In this document: positions 17,500 through 29,898 of the stretch, in pieces
Layout: each line of letters begins with the position of its first letter
How positions within the stretch are numbered: the stretch's first letter is position 1
Assembly: GCA_021789095.1 (NCBI GenBank)
Contig: JAJYJX010000006.1
Span: forward strand, 1 to 30,167
Source: a bacterium
Lineage (GTDB): Bacteria > JAMCPX01
DNA: 30,167 bases
Reading direction: 5' to 3'
Made by a program: the position numbers and the translations under genes
The notes under the pieces: model-generated
Database searches by the model: none
What the model was told of the DNA's origin: nothing
What the model saw: only the letters and a program-made list of their open reading frames with translations

Positions 17500-19095
17500 A
17501 ACAGGCTGTTGAAAAACTCCGTTTTTTAAGAGCAGTTTCATTCACTAAATTGCAGTATATTGATATTACGGGTAAACCGATAAAATAATTTCATCATTCC
17601 GGTTATCGAAGACGGGATAAGGGGCTTGTTTACCTCCATAGCTCCCTTTTGTGGCACTCTCCTTGAGAGCATTTTGACCATCCTCTTAATATTCTGTGCT
17701 GCAGCAGTCATCAAGATCTGCTCCCTCACAAATTCAGCACCTCGAAACTTAGCTCTCCTCAGTCCCATAAACTCTTTTGCCTCCCCGAATAATTCCTCAA
17801 TCCGCTTCCTCATCCGCTGTGATATCCGATATTCGGCGGTCCTGTTCAGGCGTCTCGCTTCTTGGAGGGAATCTTAATAAAGGTGATAACTTATCGACCG
17901 GGCTCGGTCTCTTGTGCATTCTGATTTCTTGGCACATATCCCGCAATCTTTCATGCTTGCACGGTATACATGCTGCCGGCTGTGTTTGTGTATCCCCCAA
18001 TACCTCATTTCCTTCCCTTCAGGACAGAGAAATATGTTGCGCCCTTTATCAAAAGTAAACCTCTCTATCGGATAGATGCCTTTCTCGTTCCGGCTGCGAT
18101 TATCCACTATCGGTATGTGCGGCTGTATCTTCTCCTTCAGAAGAGCATCTATAAACTCACCAGCGCAGTATCCTTTGTCCGCTCCAAGCGTTTGGGGTGT
18201 TATATTGTAGCTCTGTTTTATTCTCTGTATCTGCCTCAGTGCATTCTTGCAGTCCGTGTTCTTGTCAGGCTTGCCGATATCGGTCCCTATTATTATCCTG
18301 CTCTTACTGTCCATGACATAGGTAGCTGCATGGCTCAATTCCGTTGCCCCCATAGACGTTTTCCTCGCAAGCCGTGCATCAGGATCCGTATGCGATCGGT
18401 GAGTATCGTTGCTTATCGTCTCGCCCCGGGTCGCTTTCCCATATCCGGGTTCCCATGGCGTTTCTTCTACAGGGTTCTCCTTCTCAAGCTTCTCTATGTA
18501 TTCCTTAGGCTTCATCTCCACCACGACCGGCTCAAGGCTCTTGATCGATGCATTCGCTTTGATGTTCGTGCTGTCCACCGTCAGGTGTCTCCCCGTCAAC
18601 AAGCCAGCCCTTATACACTGCCGTACTATCTCATCAAACAGCTCTTGAAATACATTCCCCTCGGAGAATCTCTCGTGCCGGTTCTTGGAAAACGTCGAGT
18701 GATCCGGTACCTTGTCATCAAGAGTTAACCCTACAAACCATCGGTACCCTATATGCATGTTGACTTCCTCGCACAATCTCCGCTCAGAGTTGATCCCGTA
18801 CAAATATCCTACCAAAAGCATCCTCAGCAATATTTCCGGGTCTATCGAGGGGCGGCCGGTGTGACTGTATAAATGCTTCACCTTCTCCCGTACAAAACCA
18901 AAATCTACATGCTTCTCTGCCAGCTTCAATAGATGGTTCTCGGGAATTAAATCCTCTACCTTGACGTGATAAAACATCGGCTCCGTCCTCTTTTTCTCTC
19001 CTAACATCATGCCTCCTGCAAATGGATTGCCTCTGTTCTACCACTCTCAGATCATAAAATGAATCGTTTTTTGAAAGGAGTTTTCAACAGCCTGT
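17500..19095 (-). mobile_element. IS1182-type insertion sequence, inactivated
   Basis: The element is bounded by inverted ends: ACAGGCTGTTGAAAAACTCC at 17501-17520, and the reverse complement ACAGGCTGTTGAAAACTCC at 19077-19095, differing by one A. It contains a single transposase gene on the minus strand that fills most of its length. No clear target duplication is visible in the flanks. The right end interrupts an XRE regulator gene fragment. The transposase has an in-frame stop, so this copy is likely non-autonomous. Confidence 0.88.
17538..19010 (-). pseudogene. IS1182-family transposase with in-frame TAA
   Basis: A DDE transposase of about 490 codons, interrupted by one TAA at 17874-17876. 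Residues 1-378 hold the DUF772 N-terminal domain (GRPSIDPEILLRMLLVGYLYG) and the first two acidic residues (VDSTNIKAN and GADKGY). The reading frame continues unchanged after the stop as DSLQEARRLNRTAEYRIS and then IEELFGEAKEFMGLRRAKFRG, the block expected to contain the catalytic Glu. A single C-to-T change in CAA would explain the stop. The truncated product lacks the third catalytic acid, so it should be inactive unless the stop is read through. Confidence 0.9.
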
Positions 19096-20772: not shown

Positions 20773-21387
20773 CTAACAATCACACAATTTTTCTTCTTTT
20801 AAAGTTTCGTAACCCTCTCTTAGAAGAAATATTACTATAACCAATCCAGCTATCGGATCTGCTTGCCAGAATCCATACAAATAATTCAATCCCAGTCCAA
20901 TCAACAAAGCAGCCGACATGAACATGCAGGTAAGCGTTTGCTTGGAATCTGCAATCAGGCTTTTGCTGTTCATTGATTTTCCCGTTTTGTATTTCAGGTA
21001 AAATAAGACCGGCATTGCTATTAACGAAATTACAGCTATGATGATACCCAGGATACTTGGATTCACAGCTTCATGCAAATACAGCTTTTTGACTGATTCA
21101 TAGAGAACGTAAACTCCGAGCACAAAGAAGGAATATGCAACCAGCTTTGCTGCTCTTCTTTCAATTTTTTCTTCCTCAAGCTCTGACAGTTTCCCATGTT
21201 TCCTGAATCTCCAGATCATTATGCATCCGGAAAACGATTCAACGAAACTATCAAGACCGAATCCAAGAAGTGCTATGCTGCCGGCCGATGATCCTGCAAA
21301 GATAGATGCAATACCTTCCAGAATGTTATATCCAACGGTGAAATAGGATAACAAAAGCGCTTTCTTATATGGTTTTGAATACATCAT
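20773..21387 (-). CDS. TMEM163-like / CDF-superfamily cation transporter
   Basis: A 204-residue membrane protein with about six helices. It shows the family features GSIALLGFGLDSFVESFSG in TM2, and SLIADSKQTLTCMFMSAALL followed by WQADPIAGLVIVIFLLREG near the C-terminus, as in short CDF-superfamily cation transporters lacking the cytoplasmic C-terminal domain. The Asp residues in these helices would bind the metal. The C-terminus is CDC. I start it at the first of two consecutive ATGs, one base after the stop of the small Cys-rich gene, implying coupling; the open frame upstream overlaps that gene in another frame. Metal specificity is unknown; Fe or another divalent metal is likely from the promoter context. 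Confidence 0.8.
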   Translation of the reverse strand: MMYSKPYKKALLLSYFTVGYNILEGIASIFAGSSAGSIALLGFGLDSFVESFSGCIMIWRFRKHGKLSELEEEKIERRAAKLVAYSFFVLGVYVLYESVKKLYLHEAVNPSILGIIIAVISLIAMPVLFYLKYKTGKSMNSKSLIADSKQTLTCMFMSAALLIGLGLNYLYGFWQADPIAGLVIVIFLLREGYETLKEEKLCDC

Positions 21388-21388
21388 T

Positions 21389-21547
21389 TTATCTTTGCTT
21401 TTTATCGTCTTTCCAGATTTTTTTCTTGACCTTGTGAGTTTCAGAGCAATCTGGACACTGAGCTTTATTCTTCCAAATAGACGTGTAAAGCATGTACACC
21501 GCACCACCCAGAAGCAGTATTACCAGCGTAGCATTAACGAATCCCAT
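21389..21547 (-). CDS. Small Cys-rich single-span membrane protein (FeoB-associated type)
   Basis: This 52-codon gene has an excellent ribosome binding site (AAAGGAGGT, 6 bases before ATG). The product has one transmembrane segment (about residues 6-24, TLVILLLGGAVYMLYTSIW) followed by a CPDC motif and a Lys-rich tail. This is the architecture of FeoB-associated Cys-rich membrane proteins, but no feoA or feoB is present here. The stop is followed after one base by the cation transporter ATG, so the two form an operon. A role in metal handling is inferred from motif and neighbour. Confidence 0.75.
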   Translation of the reverse strand: MGFVNATLVILLLGGAVYMLYTSIWKNKAQCPDCSETHKVKKKIWKDDKKQR

Positions 21548-22470: not shown

Positions 22471-23688
22471 CTATTCGTACCGCAGTGCCTCTATGGGGTT
22501 GAGTTTGGACGCCTTTGTCGCGGGGTACAGCCCGAAGAACACCCCGACGGCAAATGAGAAGAAGAATGCAATAAGAACGGGGAATACATTGATACTTATT
22601 GGTATTTTTATGAACGATCCCGCGGTAATGCTGAGTATACTGCCGAGTATGATTCCTATGATACCGCCTATAGTGCTCAGAGTAACTGCCTCAAGCAGGA
22701 ACTGGAGCAGGATGTCCCTCCTTTTTGCGCCCACAGCCATCCTTATGCCAATCTCCCGTGTCCTCTCGGTTACGGAAACGAGCATGATGTTCATGATGCC
22801 TATGCCGCCGACAATAAGAGATATGGATGCGATGCTTCCAAGGAAGATGGTCAGAAGGCCTGTTATGTTCATGACAGCGGCCAGCATATCGGTAACATTG
22901 CGGATGGTGAAGTCGTTGTCAGAGCCTGTTTTTATATTGTGCCTCTGGCGCAGGAGCGATTCTATTTCCTGCTGTGCCGCATTGACCGATGAACTCGATA
23001 TGGCCTTGACAAAGATAAAACTGAGATAATCTATGCCGAGCAGCTTTTTCTGTATGGTTGTGTACGGCGCGAGGATCATATCATCCTGATCCTGTCCGAA
23101 CCCTGCGGTACCCTTTGCCGCCATAACGGCAACCACCCTGAAGGGCAGGTTTTTGATCTTTATAATCTTGCCGATGGGATCAATGCCTCCGAACAGCTGC
23201 TCCTTCACGACCTGTCCGATGGCGCATACATTGGCTGCTGCGTCCACGTCCTCTTTATCGAAGAAATTACCTTCCGTAATGGGCCAATCCCGTATCATGG
23301 GGAAGCTCGATCCGACCCCCATGATTGACGTTGCCCAGTTCTGGTTCTGGTATACGGTTTGTCCGACCCACCTGACACCCGGTGAAACGTACAAAGCGTC
23401 AGGGATCTGGTTTGCTATTGCGGCAGCGTCCGACGGCATAAGGGTATTGACCGAACCAAAACCCCCGTGCACCCCGCCCATGGACGTACTGCCCGGCAGG
23501 ATCATCAGCAGGTTGGAACCAAGGGCCGAGATCTGGCTCTCTATCTTCCTGCTTACGCCCTGTCCTATGGAAACAAGGGCAACCACAGCGGCAATACCTA
23601 TGATAACGCCGAGCCCGGTGAGCACGGAGCGCATCTTGTTCTTGTACAGCGCCCTTGTCGATACCTTCATTGCCTCGGGTAAATTCAT
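22471..23688 (-). CDS. MacB/FtsX-type ABC transporter permease
   Basis: A 405-residue permease of the MacB class. TM1 is at about residues 20-42 (VLTGLGVIIGIAAVVALVSI). A large periplasmic MacB core domain follows (about 45-270, beginning IESQISALGSNLLMILPGS). Three C-terminal helices belong to the FtsX domain (about 285-310, 335-360, 370-395), with the conserved GIMNIMLVSVTERTREIGIR cytoplasmic loop. Such permeases work as mechanotransmitters that drive efflux through a MacA-TolC conduit. AGGAGA precedes the ATG. It is the last gene of the minus-strand efflux operon. Unlike E. coli MacB, ATPase and permease are separate polypeptides. Confidence 0.92.
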   Translation of the reverse strand: MNLPEAMKVSTRALYKNKMRSVLTGLGVIIGIAAVVALVSIGQGVSRKIESQISALGSNLLMILPGSTSMGGVHGGFGSVNTLMPSDAAAIANQIPDALYVSPGVRWVGQTVYQNQNWATSIMGVGSSFPMIRDWPITEGNFFDKEDVDAAANVCAIGQVVKEQLFGGIDPIGKIIKIKNLPFRVVAVMAAKGTAGFGQDQDDMILAPYTTIQKKLLGIDYLSFIFVKAISSSSVNAAQQEIESLLRQRHNIKTGSDNDFTIRNVTDMLAAVMNITGLLTIFLGSIASISLIVGGIGIMNIMLVSVTERTREIGIRMAVGAKRRDILLQFLLEAVTLSTIGGIIGIILGSILSITAGSFIKIPISINVFPVLIAFFFSFAVGVFFGLYPATKASKLNPIEALRYE

Positions 23689-23900
23689 GGTGTCTCCTTA
23701 TCAATTTCAAGAGAAGTAAGAATTGTCGAGATGAGCGAAGGATAAGCGTCCTCAGGGTATTCTTCGAATATCGGCAAGAATATTAATGAAAGAGACCCGC
23801 ATATAAGCTTACGGAGGACATTAGCATGGGTAAAAGAGTAAAAGCATGCGTGCAGGATGGATCGATTATCAGAGCGAATAAGATGATTCTTACTTCTCAT
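23685..23900 (-). CDS. Possible 71-residue ORF bridging ATPase and permease genes
   Basis: An uninterrupted frame starts at an ATG inside the last codons of the ATPase gene (11-base overlap) and ends with a TGA overlapping the permease ATG by 4 bases. That is the junction geometry used elsewhere in this operon. The product has no recognised domain; residues about 27-44 (VLRKLICGSLSLIFLPIF) are hydrophobic. There is no good ribosome binding site, and both ends of the ORF lie in an inverted repeat, so it may be a chance frame. Confidence 0.3.
   Translation of the reverse strand: MRSKNHLIRSDNRSILHACFYSFTHANVLRKLICGSLSLIFLPIFEEYPEDAYPSLISTILTSLEIDKETP
23711..23898. repeat. 188-bp region with 13-bp perfect inverted ends
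   Basis: GAGAAGTAAGAAT (23711-23723) and ATTCTTACTTCTC (23886-23898) are exact inverted copies. The right copy includes the final codons and stop of the ATPase gene. The interior has AT-rich small palindromes (TATTCTTCGAATA). It could be a MITE or a large stem-loop in the mRNA between the ATPase and permease genes. Confidence 0.5.
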
Positions 23901-24612
23901 GGTTCACCGTGTCCGATACAATAAGTCCGTCCCTGAACGTTATGATCCGCTGTGCATACGCGGCAATATCATGTTCATGGGTCACCAGTATTATGGTCAC
24001 ACCCATTTCTTCGTTGAGCTTCTTCAGTACGTGCATGATCTCGTAGCTCGTTTTGGTGTCAAGGTTGCCTGTGGGCTCGTCCGCAAGTATGATGCTCGGG
24101 GAATTGACAAGCGCCCGCGCTATCGCAACACGCTGCTGCTGACCTCCTGAAAGCTGCTGGGGAAAATGCTTCTCAAACCCTTTCAGTCCCATCATTTCAA
24201 GCAGTTCCAATGCTTTTTTCACCCTCTCATGTCTTGATGTACCCGAATATACGAGCGGGAGCTCGATATTTTCCATGGCGCTCGTCCGTGCAAGCAGGTT
24301 AAAGTTCTGGAATATAAAACCAATCCTTTCATTGCGGATCTCGGCAAGCCTGTCTGGGGTGAACGATGAGACATCCGTGCCCTGGAGGAAGTATTCGCCT
24401 TCTGTCGGTTTATCAAGGCATCCGAGTATATTCATAAAGGTTGTTTTGCCGGATCCCGATGCACCTGTTATGGATACAAAAGAGCCCTTCGGTATTTCAA
24501 GATTTACCTCTTTGATTGCCGGCACTGCGACATGGTCCAGAAAATAAGTCTTTTTCAAGCCGACAACCTTGACAACAATGCCGTTATTGTCCTGTCTGGT
24601 ATCCTGTGACAA
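23890..24612 (-). CDS. MacB/LolD-type ABC transporter ATPase
   Basis: A 240-residue nucleotide-binding subunit that energises the permease. Walker A is GASGSGKTT (about residues 50-58), the Q-loop is FIFQNFNLL, the ABC signature LSGGQQQR is near 153, Walker B is IILADEPTGNLD near 175, and the switch His is in THEHD. It belongs to the MacB/LolD/FtsE lipoprotein- and peptide-extrusion group. Its start lies within the end of the MacA-like adaptor gene (29-base overlap). It is separated from the permease gene by about 200 bases with a possible small ORF, an unusual gap in an otherwise overlapping operon. Confidence 0.94.
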   Translation of the reverse strand: MSQDTRQDNNGIVVKVVGLKKTYFLDHVAVPAIKEVNLEIPKGSFVSITGASGSGKTTFMNILGCLDKPTEGEYFLQGTDVSSFTPDRLAEIRNERIGFIFQNFNLLARTSAMENIELPLVYSGTSRHERVKKALELLEMMGLKGFEKHFPQQLSGGQQQRVAIARALVNSPSIILADEPTGNLDTKTSYEIMHVLKKLNEEMGVTIILVTHEHDIAAYAQRIITFRDGLIVSDTVNHEK

Positions 24613-25774
24613 CCTCGTCTCCTTCTTTCAAATCCCCTTTAACAAGTTCTGCAAAGTTGTTGTCCCGTATACCCGTTTGTATGGGTACAGGTATAAACTG
24701 ATTGTCCCTGTATACCCAGACCTTTGGTATGCGGTACCATGCCTTTTTCTCAGCCTCCGGATTTCCGGTCTTTGCCCAATCGGGCAGTTTGTTATGCAGG
24801 CTGTACGTTTTTATAAGGGTATCCGAATCCTTCGGGGCAAATCTGAGCGCTGCATTGGGTATCATTACGATATTATTTTTTTTGCCGACGTCTATGGTAA
24901 CATACGTGGTCATGCCCGGTTTCAATTTGAAGTCTTTGTTGTCCACGTAGATGATCACGTCGTAGTTAACGACGTTCTGGATGATTATGGGTGCGTTCCT
25001 TACAATGGCAACAGTACCCGTAAAAACGGTGGTGGGGTATGCATCGACCGTGAATTCCGATTTTTGTCCCACCTTTACCTTGCCTATGTCCGTTTCCACG
25101 ACGTTGGTGTCGCTTTCCATCTTTTCAAGGTTTTCTGCAATATCGAACATGTCCGGTGTCTGGAACGATGCCGCCACGGTCTGGCCCACGTTTATGTTGC
25201 GCGAAACAACAATGCCGTTGAGCGGAGAAATAATGCGCGTATTGGCAAGGTTAAACTGAGCTGTACTGTAATTCGCCTGTGCCTGGATAAGCGCGGCCTG
25301 TGCCGCCGAAAAATTTGCGGCAGCGACATCGTACGTTGCCTTTGTTGTATCAATGTCCTGTTTGGAAATCAGCTCGGGAGGGAGTGAAAGCTGCCTTTCA
25401 TAGTTTCCCTTATCAAGCTCCATGGTTGCTTTTGCCTGTAAGATCCCTGCCTTGGCACTGAGCAGGTTGGCGGTTGCCTGCGATAGCGCCGCCTCAAAAG
25501 GTGTCGGGTCTATGAGAGCAAGGATCTGGCCCTTTTTTACAATGCTGTTGAAATCTGCATATAATTTTATGATCTTGCCGGAAACCTGGCTGCCGACCTG
25601 TACCTCGACGATGGGATTGATCTGTCCTGTTGCAGTCACCGTTGAAGTGATATCGCCTATCCGTACTTTTTCGAACGCCAGCAATGGTTTTTTGTCCCTT
25701 TTGACAAGAACAATGACGATTATTATTACTACTGCCAGTGCTGCGCCTGCTATCAGCCAGTACTTATTCTTCAT
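24584..25774 (-). CDS. MacA-like periplasmic adaptor (membrane fusion protein)
   Basis: A 396-residue HlyD-family adaptor linking the inner-membrane ABC permease to TolC. The N-terminal anchor is at residues 4-22 (YWLIAGAALAVVIIIVIVL). The lipoyl/barrel-sandwich halves are VEVQVGSQVSGKIIKLYADF and IISPLNGIVVSRNINVGQTV. The intervening coiled-coil hairpin (about 85-180) is rich in Ala/Gln, and beta-barrel and membrane-proximal domains follow. The start MKNKYWL overlaps the end of the tolC gene by 11 bases; a longer in-frame start 15 codons upstream lies inside tolC. A GGGGG tract is the only ribosome-binding candidate, so coupling to tolC translation is likely. Confidence 0.92.
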   Translation of the reverse strand: MKNKYWLIAGAALAVVIIIVIVLVKRDKKPLLAFEKVRIGDITSTVTATGQINPIVEVQVGSQVSGKIIKLYADFNSIVKKGQILALIDPTPFEAALSQATANLLSAKAGILQAKATMELDKGNYERQLSLPPELISKQDIDTTKATYDVAAANFSAAQAALIQAQANYSTAQFNLANTRIISPLNGIVVSRNINVGQTVAASFQTPDMFDIAENLEKMESDTNVVETDIGKVKVGQKSEFTVDAYPTTVFTGTVAIVRNAPIIIQNVVNYDVIIYVDNKDFKLKPGMTTYVTIDVGKKNNIVMIPNAALRFAPKDSDTLIKTYSLHNKLPDWAKTGNPEAEKKAWYRIPKVWVYRDNQFIPVPIQTGIRDNNFAELVKGDLKEGDEVVTGYQTGQ

Positions 25775-27107
25775 AATTCGAACCCCCGTTTTCGATTGTA
25801 TTCCCGGTAACATACTCAAGGTTTGCCACTGCTATATTGTAGGACGCAAGCGCTGTTGCATAGGACGACTGGGCGTTCTGGTATGTGCCCACGGCAGTAA
25901 GGTAATCAAGGTAATTATTTATGCCTGCATTGTATCCTTTCTCGGTAAGCTCCAGATTCGCCTGGGCCTGGTCTAACGTGTCCTTTGCAACTGTTATGCT
26001 TTTTTCTGCCTGATCAATATTGTCCAATGCAGACTGTACCGACAGCCCGACCGACAATTTTTGCTGGTCGATGTTGTACTTGAGCTTCAGCATCTGCGCC
26101 CTGGCAACCTCCTTGGCCGATGTGTTCTGGAATCCGGAGAATATATTGAAATCGAGTTCGAGTCCGGCTGTCCAGTTCCATACGAGAGGGAAGTCCTGCC
26201 CGGACCAGTTGTACGATGCAACGCCTGACAGTGTGGGAAAGTATGTGCTTATGGATTGTTTGTATGAATACGTGGCAGAATCAAGCTGTTTTTTTAAAGA
26301 CAGGTAATCGGGCCGGTTGCCCAGTGCCTTGTCCACATAGGCGTCTGCGTCGCTCGTAATGGTTGTTGCAGTAAGCTCCCCCGTGAATTCAATGCCAGCC
26401 GTAAGGGGGAGTCCCATGAGTGACAGGAGATTAAGAATGTAGATCTTTTTTGCATTCTCCGCGGTTATCAGGCTCAGTTTGATGTTGCCAAGGCTGGTCT
26501 GTGCACTGAGAACGTCGATCTTTGTCTTGATACCGGCCTTGTAGTAAGCCTGCGCCTGCTGTAGCTGGGTTTCCATCTGCTGCAGGAGATACCTGTCAGC
26601 TTCGATAATCATATTGTACTGCAGTATGGAGAAAAAATTCTGTTTTACACTGTAGATCAGCGTATTCTTTGTATTTACAAAATTATACCGGGAAGCCTTT
26701 ACCAGCTCTGAGGCTGACTGCATGCCAAAATAGTTTTTGCCGAAGCTGAACAATTGCTGGTTAAGCGTTACCGATGCGGTGTAGTATGGATAGTTTGTAT
26801 TGTCCGGCGTTCTGTAGAATATAGATGTATAAGGACTTTTTGATGTTATCGCAAAATTAGAGGTGGCCCTCTGTGCATCCGCGACCGCATTTATCTGAGG
26901 CAGGAGGACCGACCTTGCGATGCCGTACGTGCCCTTGCTTGACATGATGTCCATCCCGGAGGCCTTCAGCTGCGGGTTATTTTCAAGGGTCAGCTTTACG
27001 CAGTCATCGAGTGTCATAACCTGTTGCTCATCTGCACTGACAGGCGGAACCGCTGTGATTGATAATAATAAAAATAGAAAAAAAATAGATATGCTTTTGC
27101 TCATCAT
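25764..27107 (-). CDS. TolC-family outer-membrane efflux protein
   Basis: A 447-residue outer-membrane factor with a Sec signal peptide (residues 1-25, cleavage near VSADEQ). Two structural repeats begin TLDDCVKLTLENNPQLKASG (about 31-50) and continue with long Ala/Gln/Asn-rich helices forming the periplasmic alpha-barrel, for example AYYKAGIKTKIDVLSAQTSL and KGYNAGINNYLDYLTAVGTY. These are the repeated 'G...DvL.A...' motifs typical of the family. It would form the trimeric exit duct for the MacAB-like pump encoded next to it. It starts 27 bases after the Spy-like gene. A second ATG is the next codon. Confidence 0.93.
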   Translation of the reverse strand: MMSKSISIFFLFLLLSITAVPPVSADEQQVMTLDDCVKLTLENNPQLKASGMDIMSSKGTYGIARSVLLPQINAVADAQRATSNFAITSKSPYTSIFYRTPDNTNYPYYTASVTLNQQLFSFGKNYFGMQSASELVKASRYNFVNTKNTLIYSVKQNFFSILQYNMIIEADRYLLQQMETQLQQAQAYYKAGIKTKIDVLSAQTSLGNIKLSLITAENAKKIYILNLLSLMGLPLTAGIEFTGELTATTITSDADAYVDKALGNRPDYLSLKKQLDSATYSYKQSISTYFPTLSGVASYNWSGQDFPLVWNWTAGLELDFNIFSGFQNTSAKEVARAQMLKLKYNIDQQKLSVGLSVQSALDNIDQAEKSITVAKDTLDQAQANLELTEKGYNAGINNYLDYLTAVGTYQNAQSSYATALASYNIAVANLEYVTGNTIENGGSNYEE

Positions 27108-27134
27108 AGAAACTCTCTAAGTCTTTTAAGTCCC

Positions 27135-27620
27135 TCAACGACGTGGGCCATGCGGCCCATGTCCGCCTTCTCTTTTGGTTATTGCGTTTTCTATTAAACC
27201 AAAAAACTTCTTTTGCTGGTCTTTATTCAGTATTGCCTTAACTACGATTATGTGGGCAACTATTTTCTGCTGTATGCTCTCCTGCATATCGCCTATCTCT
27301 GAAATAATTTGATTGATTTCCTTTTTATCAGGTTTATCAGCCCGCATAAGGTTGAGAAGTTTCATTCTTTTCTGAAATATCTGCTCTCGTGTTTTATCTA
27401 TTTCATCATGGAACGATTGCTCATTTTCTTCCAATGCCTTTGCCTGGTCGGGGTTCAGGGATAGTTCCCTGATAAGAAATGCGCGCCTTCCCTTCCCTGG
27501 CCCGAATGGTGCAGGCATATGTAATGAATTCCGGTAATACGAATATCCGACTGTGCCGAGGATAACTATGTTAAGGGCAACCGATAGTAAAAGTATGAAT
27601 TTCAATGTGCTATTTTTCAT
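27135..27620 (-). CDS. Spy/CpxP/ZraP-like periplasmic stress or metal-sensing protein
   Basis: A 161-residue protein anchored or exported by an N-terminal hydrophobic segment (residues 6-27). The rest is helical, with LSLNPDQAKALEENEQSFHD followed by a long amphipathic helix (IDKTREQIFQKRMKLLNLMR) and LNKDQQKKFFGLIENAI, a pattern of the heavy-metal-resistance/LTXXQ group. The tail GGHGPHGPRR could bind metal. Such proteins act as periplasmic chaperones or as sensors that modulate an envelope-stress sigma system. The start overlaps the anti-sigma gene by 11 bases, with GGAGGG upstream inside it. It probably reports on the signal that the downstream pump removes. Confidence 0.82.
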   Translation of the reverse strand: MKNSTLKFILLLSVALNIVILGTVGYSYYRNSLHMPAPFGPGKGRRAFLIRELSLNPDQAKALEENEQSFHDEIDKTREQIFQKRMKLLNLMRADKPDKKEINQIISEIGDMQESIQQKIVAHIIVVKAILNKDQQKKFFGLIENAITKREGGHGPHGPRR

Positions 27621-28059
27621 TGTTTCCCTCCATCATTGCAATATACGCCCCGCCTATAGAATTAGGCTGGACTGACTCAAACGCATCAAGAGAAAGTGAG
27701 GATACAATGGTTGTTTTCTGTCCTGCAAAAGTTTTACCAAGGAGGCTACCAGCTCGTGAACCTATAATTATTACTAAAATAACAACAGCCGCTTCTATGA
27801 GTCTGCTTAATACCGGGAACAATGACAATCTTTTTGTCCGCTTCTCGTCTATAGTAGCCATAACCCTTGTTGTAAACGCATAGGGTGCATTTAGCCTTTC
27901 CATGGAACTGAATGTATTGTGTATGGCCTGCATCTCCTCAAGCATGGTGCGACATTTCTTACAATCTCTTATATGGGCATCAAACAGCTCTGTTTCAGCT
28001 TTTGTTAATGCCTTGTCTATGTATGGTGAAAAAAGCTTTTTTGCCCTTGAACACCTCAT
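27610..28059 (-). CDS. Zinc-finger anti-sigma factor
   Basis: A 149-residue membrane anti-sigma factor of the zf-HC2 type. The cytoplasmic N-terminal domain holds the zinc motif HIRDCKKC (His29, Cys33, Cys36). A transmembrane helix is at about residues 86-106 (LIEAAVVILVIIIGSRAG), and a short periplasmic tail follows. It would bind and inhibit the ECF sigma factor encoded immediately upstream until a signal crosses the membrane. GAGGAGG precedes the ATG, and a GGAAC-N16-CGTTA promoter lies just upstream. It is coupled to the Spy-like gene by an 11-base overlap. Confidence 0.88.
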   Translation of the reverse strand: MRCSRAKKLFSPYIDKALTKAETELFDAHIRDCKKCRTMLEEMQAIHNTFSSMERLNAPYAFTTRVMATIDEKRTKRLSLFPVLSRLIEAAVVILVIIIGSRAGSLLGKTFAGQKTTIVSSLSLDAFESVQPNSIGGAYIAMMEGNNEK

Positions 28060-28078
28060 ATCTTCCTCCTCATATTAG

Positions 28079-28104
28079 TAACGATACAATCCTATTTTTG
28101 TTCC
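28079..28104 (-). promoter_or_regulatory. ECF-sigma-type promoter upstream of the anti-sigma/efflux genes
   Basis: On the minus strand GGAAC (28100-28104) and CGTTA (28079-28083) are separated by exactly 16 bases. This is the usual layout of group-IV sigma promoters, which have an AAC-containing -35 and a CGT-containing -10. The expected transcript start is near 28072, only about 13 bases before the anti-sigma ATG but just upstream of its ribosome binding site. It implies that the ECF sigma encoded next door drives anti-sigma and efflux genes. Confidence 0.6.
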
Positions 28105-28105
28105 G

Positions 28106-28124
28106 TAAACCCCGTTAGAGAACC
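28106..28124. repeat. CCCCGTTAGA-family repeat, single arm
   Basis: TAAACCCCGTTAGAGAACC matches the core of the inverted repeats at 1730-1765 and 10284-10387. Its partner arm is not recognisable. It borders the ECF-type promoter between the sigma and anti-sigma genes. Confidence 0.5.
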
Positions 28125-28146
28125 TGATTTTCCATGAGAATAAGGA

Positions 28147-28740
28147 TTACCGGTTTTCATGATTAGTCCTCTCTATCGGGGTAAATCCCTTCATTAAATC
28201 TCTTAGCTCTTCTCTTGCCCTTGAAATCCTTGATTTGACAGTGCCTATGGATATGTCCAGCACACGTGCGATGTCTTCGTAAGGGAGTCCTTCGATCTCT
28301 TTCATGACTATGATAGTCCTTAATTTCTGCGATAATTTCTTTAATGCTTTTTGCAATGCATCGGTCATTTGCCTGGATTCATAAAGCTTTTCAGGGGAAG
28401 GTTCAGTGGACTGCTCCTCTGCAATGATATCCTCTCCATTATTGGTGTGTTTGAAAAGGGATTCAAAAGCAGACTTTCGTTTATAATCAATGCAGGTATT
28501 GACTGCTATGCGGTAAAGCCATGTATAGAGCGATGCATCGGGCTTGAAGTTTTTCAGGCTCTGGTAAGCCTTCAAAAACGTGTCCTGTGCCGCGTCCTCG
28601 GCATTATGAGGGTCCCCCAGCATGTAACGGCAAAGCCTGTATATCCTGTCCTGGTATGCAAGGACGATGTCTTTAAATGCCGACGTGTCTCCCCGCTTGA
28701 AGCGTTCAAGGACGACAGGCTCGTTCAGTTTTTCGCTCAT
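28147..28740 (-). CDS. ECF RNA polymerase sigma factor (RpoE-like)
   Basis: A 197-residue group-IV sigma factor. Region 2 (about residues 22-95) includes DRIYRLCRYMLGDPHNAEDA, DTFLKAYQSL and the DNA-opening and -10-recognition segment SLYTWLYRIAVNTCIDYKR. Region 4 (about 130-185) includes LRTIIVMKEIEGLPYEDIA and the recognition helix IGTVKSRISRAREELR. There is no sigma-3 domain. The zinc-finger anti-sigma gene follows 87 bases downstream, the standard pairing. It starts 18 bases after hemW, so it may be read from the hemW promoter and be present at a basal level. Confidence 0.95.
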   Translation of the reverse strand: MSEKLNEPVVLERFKRGDTSAFKDIVLAYQDRIYRLCRYMLGDPHNAEDAAQDTFLKAYQSLKNFKPDASLYTWLYRIAVNTCIDYKRKSAFESLFKHTNNGEDIIAEEQSTEPSPEKLYESRQMTDALQKALKKLSQKLRTIIVMKEIEGLPYEDIARVLDISIGTVKSRISRAREELRDLMKGFTPIERTNHENR

Positions 28741-28758: not shown

Positions 28759-29898
28759 TCAGAACAGTTCTGTGACAATGCCGTCCATAACGCACATGCC
28801 CCTGACTGTCAGGCTGAGTTTGTTGTCCTGTACGTTGATCAATCCGTCATCGGAAAGGTGTTTCATAAGCACCCTGTTTTTCACCAGTGCAGTATCAACA
28901 TGCTTCCATGTCCTGAGGGACAGGAAGATATATTCGAGTGTTTCGGCGTCCTTATCAAGCACCTCTGTTCTGCTGATGGGGAATATGCCTTCAGACCGTT
29001 TATTGCCCGGCTTATCCAGAAGTTTGGAAATGTAGACCGAAGGAGGATATGCATTTTCGTACCGCGCCTGTGCAGTCATGCCTATCCACGGCAGGCCTGC
29101 CTTGAAAAACCCGTGTGCTCCTGATCCTATACCGAGATAATCACCCCGCTCCCAATAGTTCATGTTGTGTATGGACTGGCAGCCTTTTTTCGCGAAGTTG
29201 GAGACCTCGTAGTGCTCATATCCGTTCCTGATCATTTCATCGTGTACGAGCATATAAAGCTCTTCGAACGCCTCGTCATTGAGCGGCCTGAATATCTTGT
29301 CCATGTATAACGGCGTGCCCTGCTCAATCGTGAGATAATAGAAAGAAACATGTTCGGGATGAATATCTTTTATGCCTTTTAATTCCCTGTCGATATTCTG
29401 CGATGGTATGCCGTATATTATGTCAACATTTATGTTTTTGAATCCCGCGTTTCTCGCCTTTTCAATGGCCGAAAAAGATGAATCGGCACTATGGAGCCTT
29501 CCCAAGGATTTCAGTACATTGTCATCAAAAGACTGGAGCCCGATGCTGAGGCGGTTAATCCCAAGAGTATGCATCGCTTTTAGTTTTTCCGCTGATACGC
29601 TCTCCGGGTTGGTCTCTATTGTAATTTCAACGTCTTCCTTTACAACGAAAGTTTCCCTGATCCCGCTTATGAGCTGCTCTACATGTGACGGCTCAAGCAG
29701 CGATGGCGTTCCGCCTCCTATATATACGCTCTTAACCTCCCTGTCTGACAGGAACGGTTTGTAAAGGTTGATCTCTGTACTCACAGCTTTTATATATGCA
29801 TCTATATCTTTTATATCCGGGGTTGTGGACAGGAAACTGCAGTATCTGCATTTCTTTTTACAGTATGGTATATGTACATAAACTGAATAAGTACTCAT
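28759..29898 (-). CDS. hemW: HemW-like radical SAM protein (haem chaperone)
   Basis: A 379-residue radical SAM protein of the HemN/HemW group. The [4Fe-4S] cluster motif CKKKCRYC (Cys13, Cys17, Cys20) comes right after YVHIPY. IGGGTPSLL, ETNPES and RLSIGLQSFDD are conserved. The C-terminal HemN-like domain is present. HemW lacks the extra N-terminal Cys of true coproporphyrinogen dehydrogenase HemN; this early cluster position and the length fit HemW, which delivers haem to respiratory proteins. No clear ribosome binding site precedes the start. It heads the minus-strand series that continues into the ECF sigma gene. Confidence 0.88.
   Translation of the reverse strand: MSTYSVYVHIPYCKKKCRYCSFLSTTPDIKDIDAYIKAVSTEINLYKPFLSDREVKSVYIGGGTPSLLEPSHVEQLISGIRETFVVKEDVEITIETNPESVSAEKLKAMHTLGINRLSIGLQSFDDNVLKSLGRLHSADSSFSAIEKARNAGFKNINVDIIYGIPSQNIDRELKGIKDIHPEHVSFYYLTIEQGTPLYMDKIFRPLNDEAFEELYMLVHDEMIRNGYEHYEVSNFAKKGCQSIHNMNYWERGDYLGIGSGAHGFFKAGLPWIGMTAQARYENAYPPSVYISKLLDKPGNKRSEGIFPISRTEVLDKDAETLEYIFLSLRTWKHVDTALVKNRVLMKHLSDDGLINVQDNKLSLTVRGMCVMDGIVTELF

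Follow-up and report, generated by a model that had tools for sequence, protein, structure and literature searches.

Which genes of an ECF sigma locus does its sigma factor control, and is the sigma factor itself one of them? The locus that raises this question lies in a stretch of bacterial DNA of 30,167 nucleotides (the window), which is contig C73 of a draft genome of 2.15 Mb in 203 contigs. An initial annotation had read seven of its genes as a self-regulated operon, in which a periplasmic Spy/CpxP-like protein senses a metal, a misfolded protein or a drug, releases the sigma from its anti-sigma, and thereby lets the sigma induce an efflux pump. We compared the locus among nine genomes of the window's phylum (G000-G008), all from one family, and with loci in Nitrospirae; all of the evidence is sequence comparison among draft MAGs.

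Gene content of the locus

All seven reading frames are minus-strand genes that run from 28740 to 22471, and profile matches bear out the families first assigned to them: Sigma70_r2/r4, zf-HC2, Metal_resist (PF13801), OEP, HlyD/MacA, ABC_tran and MacB_PCD with FtsX (Table 1). The genes had been described as mostly overlapping, which is correct for the anti-sigma/Spy, TolC/MacA and MacA/ATPase pairs but not for the sigma and anti-sigma genes, separated by 87 nt, or for the ATPase and permease genes, separated by 201 nt. The internal ATG at 25774 is a likely start of the MacA-like ORF. Within the sigma, PF04542 matches residues 26-90 and PF08281 residues 127-179 and no sigma3 model matches, which is the domain content of an ECF sigma; orthologues 64-72% identical were found in seven of the eight other genomes of the phylum. 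The pump is a complete tripartite ABC set with a TolC channel, a MacA-type adaptor and two ORFs for the parts of MacB, as had been claimed. The fusion of ATPase and permease known from E. coli MacB is absent, each of the two ORFs matching its own part of PRK10535, and the best NCBIfam match of the ATPase is the N-terminal part of MacB. The gap between them (window 23689-23889) is missing in G001, while G004 has a gap of similar size and different sequence in the same place.

The initial annotation mentioned neither the 87-nt gap nor the hemW-like gene on the other side of the sigma, whose stop codon is followed after 18 nt by the sigma start. The same adjacency is seen in G002, G003 and G005, and in the window the sigma is probably co-transcribed with hemW. 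Downstream of the operon and outside the conserved block lies a same-strand gene for cation efflux of the CDF family (window 20773-21507), and about 3.5 kb from the operon end is an ORF that, by sequence reading only, resembles an IS1182-like transposase (window 17874-19010).

Table 1. Positions of the genes and of the promoter in the window.
Feature	Position	Strand	Basis
hemW-like radical SAM heme chaperone	28759..29898	-	TIGR00539 279 bits, cutoff 205
ECF sigma factor, 197 aa, sigma2 and sigma4 only	28147..28740	-	PF04542, PF08281
ECF promoter GGAACAAAAATAGGATTGTATCGTT, -35 GGAAC, 16-nt spacer, -10 CGTT	28080..28104	-	conserved before anti-sigma in 25/25 loci
Membrane anti-sigma factor, N-terminal zinc-finger domain	27610..28059	-	zf-HC2 33.3 bits, cutoff 22.2
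CnrX/Spy-like periplasmic protein, N-terminal membrane anchor, predicted helical bundle	27135..27620	-	PF13801 67.2 bits, cutoff 29.2
TolC-family outer-membrane channel	25764..27107	-	OEP PF02321 219 bits
MacA-like membrane-fusion protein	24584..25819	-	HlyD_D23; MacA PRK11578 183.7 bits, below equivalog cutoff
MacB-type ATPase, own polypeptide	23890..24612	-	ABC_tran 113 bits
MacB-type permease, own polypeptide	22471..23688	-	MacB_PCD 170 bits and FtsX 82 bits

Conservation in two phyla

If the genes form one module, as had been proposed, their order should be shared by relatives. The order anti-sigma-Spy-TolC-MacA-ATPase-permease is kept in all nine genomes of the phylum (two of the contigs stop inside the ATPase gene), each of which has the anti-sigma and Spy-like genes, and this supports a single conserved module; judged by the comparison of genomes, such an order is not due to chance. 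The sigma gene stands next to the anti-sigma gene, with the promoter described below between them, in five of the nine; it is found at a separate locus in three and was not found in one.

A scan with the Spy-like alignment led to Nitrospirae MAGs that carry the same cassette, with sigmas that are 58-68% identical; a survey of 295 genomes of Nitrospirae found ten carriers. The sigma adjoins the anti-sigma at 14 of 16 of these loci, and sigma, anti-sigma and Spy-like protein remain constant despite exchange of the pump, which may be TolC-MacA-ATPase with one or two MacB-type permeases, a TolC-adaptor-permease-DevA/LolD-like set, or another ABC set.

Several loci show individual features. The operon of G004 (L036) is a mosaic when compared with window 28800-22400: its sigma and tolC resemble those of its genus-mate G001, whereas its anti-sigma (~84% at the nucleotide level) and macA-macB (~90%) resemble those of the window's genome, which belongs to another genus, and this suggests recombination between genera. 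In G005 (L089 5346-6536) tblastn matches macA without a break, yet the gene is called as two ORFs, owing either to an in-frame stop or to ORF picking. Paralogous sigma/anti-sigma/Spy-like cassettes occur in Nitrospirae (L131 14976-16457, L133 249-1748 and L137 4561-6057), all with a different sequence before the anti-sigma gene, and the copy in L131 adjoins the main cassette. Finally, L183 (G407:C36) is a second anti-sigma/Spy-like cassette with the motif and with no adjacent sigma, in a genome whose sigma-linked cassette is elsewhere (L180), so that one sigma may there serve two anti-sigma/sensor pairs.

A conserved promoter before the anti-sigma gene

An ECF promoter of the form GGAACAAAA-N10-ATCGTT lies between the sigma and anti-sigma genes. 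The window's copy stands 45 nt before the anti-sigma start, in the 87-nt gap, and has the -35 and -10 elements of a textbook ECF promoter, spaced by 16 nt. A promoter GGAAC-N16/17-CGT is present 44-49 nt before the anti-sigma start at all 25 loci compared (nine from the window's phylum and 16 from Nitrospirae), where chance would give 0.007 motif per 90-nt region, at a rate that was taken from the same loci with the true sites included. In the nine phylum genomes the motif is held at 45-47 nt, and the remaining upstream sequence is not conserved. ECF target promoters have AAC at -35 and CGT at -10 (PMC8103513), and the GGAAC-N16-CGTT of the linked operon, as defined by conservation, has both. 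The conserved motif supports the earlier proposal to the extent that an ECF-type promoter precedes the pump genes.

Two GAAAC variants of the motif (L111 and L113) were dropped because they lie inside coding sequence, and the matches in L045, L046 and L051 are taken as chance, being inside genes or far from gene starts. We also scanned the window for sigma-70 promoters and terminators; promoter counts were no higher than in shuffled sequences, and for the window we give them no weight. No terminator was called in the sigma/anti-sigma gap, so transcripts of the sigma gene may continue into the anti-sigma gene and the two units may not be fully separate in the window's genome.

Position of the sigma gene

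The hallmark of positive autoregulation would be the same motif upstream of the sigma gene. Within 250 nt upstream of the sigma it is present in none of the eight phylum genomes where the sigma was found and in 5 of 14 Nitrospirae, and these five also have one before the anti-sigma. What precedes the sigma is hemW in G000, G002, G003 and G005, and in G001, G004 and G008 a conserved sigma-70-like TTGCAT-N17-TATATT, recognized by eye.

In G002, G005 and G006 the sigma and the anti-sigma operon lie on different contigs, and the promoter is kept with the anti-sigma. What follows the sigma is an apparent tRNA gene on the opposite strand (by eye) in G002 and G005, and an unrelated dehydrogenase-like gene in G006. 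The eight phylum sequences group together in the sigma tree (98/97) with G002/G005 and G006 on different branches, so that sigma and operon would have been unlinked at least twice, or joined more than once. In G007, whose assembly is 80% complete, the operon, promoter and motif sites are present and the sigma was not found.

These observations speak against the "self-regulated" sigma of the initial annotation. Because the promoter stays with the anti-sigma and no site precedes the sigma in this phylum, we predict that the sigma-controlled unit consists of anti-sigma, sensor and pump, with negative feedback through the anti-sigma rather than a self-inducing sigma. The sigma could nevertheless be inducible through a promoter that lies before hemW or belongs to a class outside the scan. 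A classical operon, in which one promoter upstream of the sigma drives all seven genes and the sigma amplifies itself, would fit the seven co-directional and partly overlapping genes as well as the Nitrospirae that add a motif upstream of the sigma; we consider it improbable, however, given the phylum genomes without such a site, the location of the motif inside the unit and after the sigma, and the three genomes with sigma and operon at separate loci. Still less probable, to the point where we give it little weight, is that another sigma recognizes the motif, such as the second ECF that these genomes encode, and that the linked sigma is incidental. The phylum does have a second ECF/anti-sigma pair, and sigma and motif can be unlinked, but the sigma-anti-sigma linkage spans both phyla, the five Nitrospirae have the motif before the sigma itself, and neither the second pair nor the paralogous cassettes, which differ upstream, have such a motif. 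The second ECF of the genome (C160) is accordingly held to be an unlikely reader. By its linkage we infer, with some strength, that the linked sigma is the one paired with the motif.

Further promoter matches

In its strict form the motif has 20 matches in the nine genomes, compared with 2 for a reversed control. It also heads an MdtABC-like RND pump operon in eight of the nine, at 43-55 nt before the outer-membrane-factor lipoprotein gene that begins an OEP-MFP-RND operon (G000-G005 and G008); in G007 this operon is seen by its first gene only. Matches of the RND permease to MdtB, MdtC and RND_permease_2 reach 1064-1187 bits, and those to CusA/CzcA 391 bits. In three of the nine (G000, G005 and G008) the motif is found 138-180 nt before a gene for a family-2 glycosyltransferase, nearest to NodC/PgaC and below the cutoffs of those models. 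The regulon predicted from these sites is larger than the operon. It seems to be wider in the window's phylum than in Nitrospirae, since the strict matches in the latter are mostly the cassette itself.

The anti-sigma and the Spy-like protein

The anti-sigma has the zinc-binding motif of class I, Hx3Cx2C, as His29-x3-Cys33-x2-Cys36, invariant in 13 sequences, and by linkage it would bind and inhibit its cognate sigma. Its topology, as deduced from the sequence, has one hydrophobic segment at about residues 88-106, followed by a C-terminal tail of ~40 residues with the conserved SLSLDxFExxQPxSxGGAYxAM. This tail, which would be periplasmic, is as conserved as the zinc finger, which fits a binding partner on that side; the Spy-like protein, the product of the overlapping gene, is the natural candidate and would contact the tail.

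An AlphaFold2 model of the Spy-like protein, of moderate quality (mean pLDDT 67, ~80 in the core), has CnrX as its best match in the PDB (Z 11.1 over 105 residues, 2.4 A), and NccX, ZraP, CpxP and Spy are also matched. Helical bundles can score high by chance, yet here the leading matches come from the CnrX/Spy family, and the protein clearly matches its Pfam profile. The Spy/CpxP-like identity is upheld as a CnrX/Spy/CpxP fold, CnrX being the sensor of the ECF system CnrYXH. Specifically, profile and fold place the protein in the CnrX/Metal_resist family, while the Spy/CpxP LTXXQ model (PF07813) gives 20.0 bits, under its cutoff of 24.3.

Owing to the CnrX match, metal sensing was considered first; it was lowered after comparison of the ligands. 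We take the metal ligands of CnrX to include His42, His46 and His119. Met123 is also a ligand (PMC7689651). His123 of the Spy-like protein aligns with His119 (CnrX sequence from pMOL28) and is invariant in all 18 sequences, whereas the window's protein has Arg, Ile and Val where CnrX has His42, His46 and Met123. Only the His119 equivalent being kept, the metal sensing proposed earlier finds no support as a CnrX-type site and is doubtful for this protein, and because three of the four ligands compared are replaced, we favour a signal that does not act through such a site.

A metal-responsive switch of the CnrYXH type, in which the Spy-like protein, like CnrX, would bind a transition metal and the pump would remove the metal or its complexes, is therefore rather unlikely, if less so than the alternatives for the promoter. 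In its favour are the structural match and the name of the Pfam family, the His-rich tails of several f1 proteins, isolate names that suggest mine-drainage samples, and the cation diffusion facilitator gene ~1 kb downstream. Besides the ligand positions, however, the pumps are of the MacAB and MdtABC types and not of the CzcA/CusA type, and the facilitator gene is outside the conserved block. This alternative is about the signal and is compatible with the wiring that we propose.

A model of the circuit

We regard it as probable that the locus is a switch for envelope stress or efflux of toxic compounds, with a constitutive sigma and a sigma-induced anti-sigma, sensor and pump. This reading is based on gene content, conservation of the promoter, absence of the motif before the sigma, unlinking and the regulon sites; sigma-motif pairing, the Spy/anti-sigma contact, the signal and the direction of transport are steps supplied by inference. 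Synthesis of the sigma would be constitutive, from a housekeeping transcript that it shares with hemW in the window's genome and that starts at the sigma-70-like promoter in relatives. At rest it would be held by the zinc-finger anti-sigma in the membrane, to whose conserved periplasmic tail the anchored CnrX/Spy-like protein is probably bound. A trigger in the periplasm, most likely damaged envelope protein or an amphipathic toxic compound and less likely a metal, would engage the Spy-like protein and lead to release of the sigma. Free sigma would then fire the promoter between its own gene and that of the anti-sigma, raising anti-sigma, Spy-like protein and TolC-MacA-MacB pump together, and in trans the MdtABC-like RND pump operon and, in some genomes, the glycosyltransferase gene. 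With the anti-sigma inside the induced unit and the sigma outside it, the circuit would be self-limiting.

More generally, and with somewhat less confidence, we lean towards the view that the invariant element of this ECF family in two phyla is the sigma-dependent promoter before the anti-sigma rather than the sigma. Anti-sigma, sensor and effector would then be a self-limiting unit that can be moved away from a constitutive sigma and can swap its pump, and to which one phylum has added a second, unrelated pump as well as a polysaccharide synthase.

Comparison with known systems

In the original definition, an ECF sigma shared its transcript with the anti-sigma and activated its own expression; neither is now required, and ~55% are predicted to be autoregulated (PMC8103513). 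ECF sigmas are still usually described in this way, whereas conservation here points to a constitutive sigma and an induced anti-sigma, a wiring that predicts a graded response with rapid shut-off and offers a concrete circuit for testing. A precedent for an anti-sigma with its own transcript is SigE-RseA of Mycobacterium tuberculosis, where the anti-sigma gene directly follows the ECF sigma gene but is transcribed on its own (PMC11173970), as predicted here. However, sigE belongs to its own regulon, with positive feedback (PMC11173970), and the circuit as described has neither a CnrX/Spy-like sensor nor a linked pump operon. The variant is thus not categorically new, given the precedent of RseA; what is new, since sigE induces itself, is the consistency of the wiring and the separation of the sigma from the unit. 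In the open-licence papers searched we found no description of an ECF system that combines a Spy-like protein with MacAB.

By its parts, the nearest known system is CnrYXH-CnrCBA of Cupriavidus metallidurans (PMC7689651, PMC4803752; NC_007972), where an ECF sigma, a membrane anti-sigma and an anchored sensor of the CnrX fold likewise control a tripartite efflux pump with its own promoter. CnrYXH itself is a three-gene operon in the order anti-sigma, sensor, sigma, which differs from that of the window, and CnrY is a class II anti-sigma (PMC7406223), whereas the window's is a class I zinc-finger protein. Moreover, the window's sigma is only 31% identical to CnrH, the metal ligands of CnrX are largely absent from its Spy-like protein, the adjacent pump is of the ABC type, and the sigma lies outside the predicted induced unit. 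The pump itself resembles MacAB-TolC in its TolC, its MacA-like adaptor and a permease with the MacB-type periplasmic core and FtsX domain, but differs in the separate ATPase and permease proteins and in the ECF promoter that precedes it.

By its output, the nearest system is BaeSR, whose core envelope-stress regulon in enterobacteria comprises spy, mdtA and acrD (PMC3160322). The similarity lies in a Spy-family protein and an MdtABC-like RND pump; BaeSR is under two-component control rather than that of an ECF sigma, and MacAB is outside its core regulon. For an uncultured and little-known phylum, the promoter footprint gives a predicted regulon of two efflux pumps with different energy sources and an envelope polysaccharide gene, close to an output that enterobacteria reach through another kind of regulator.
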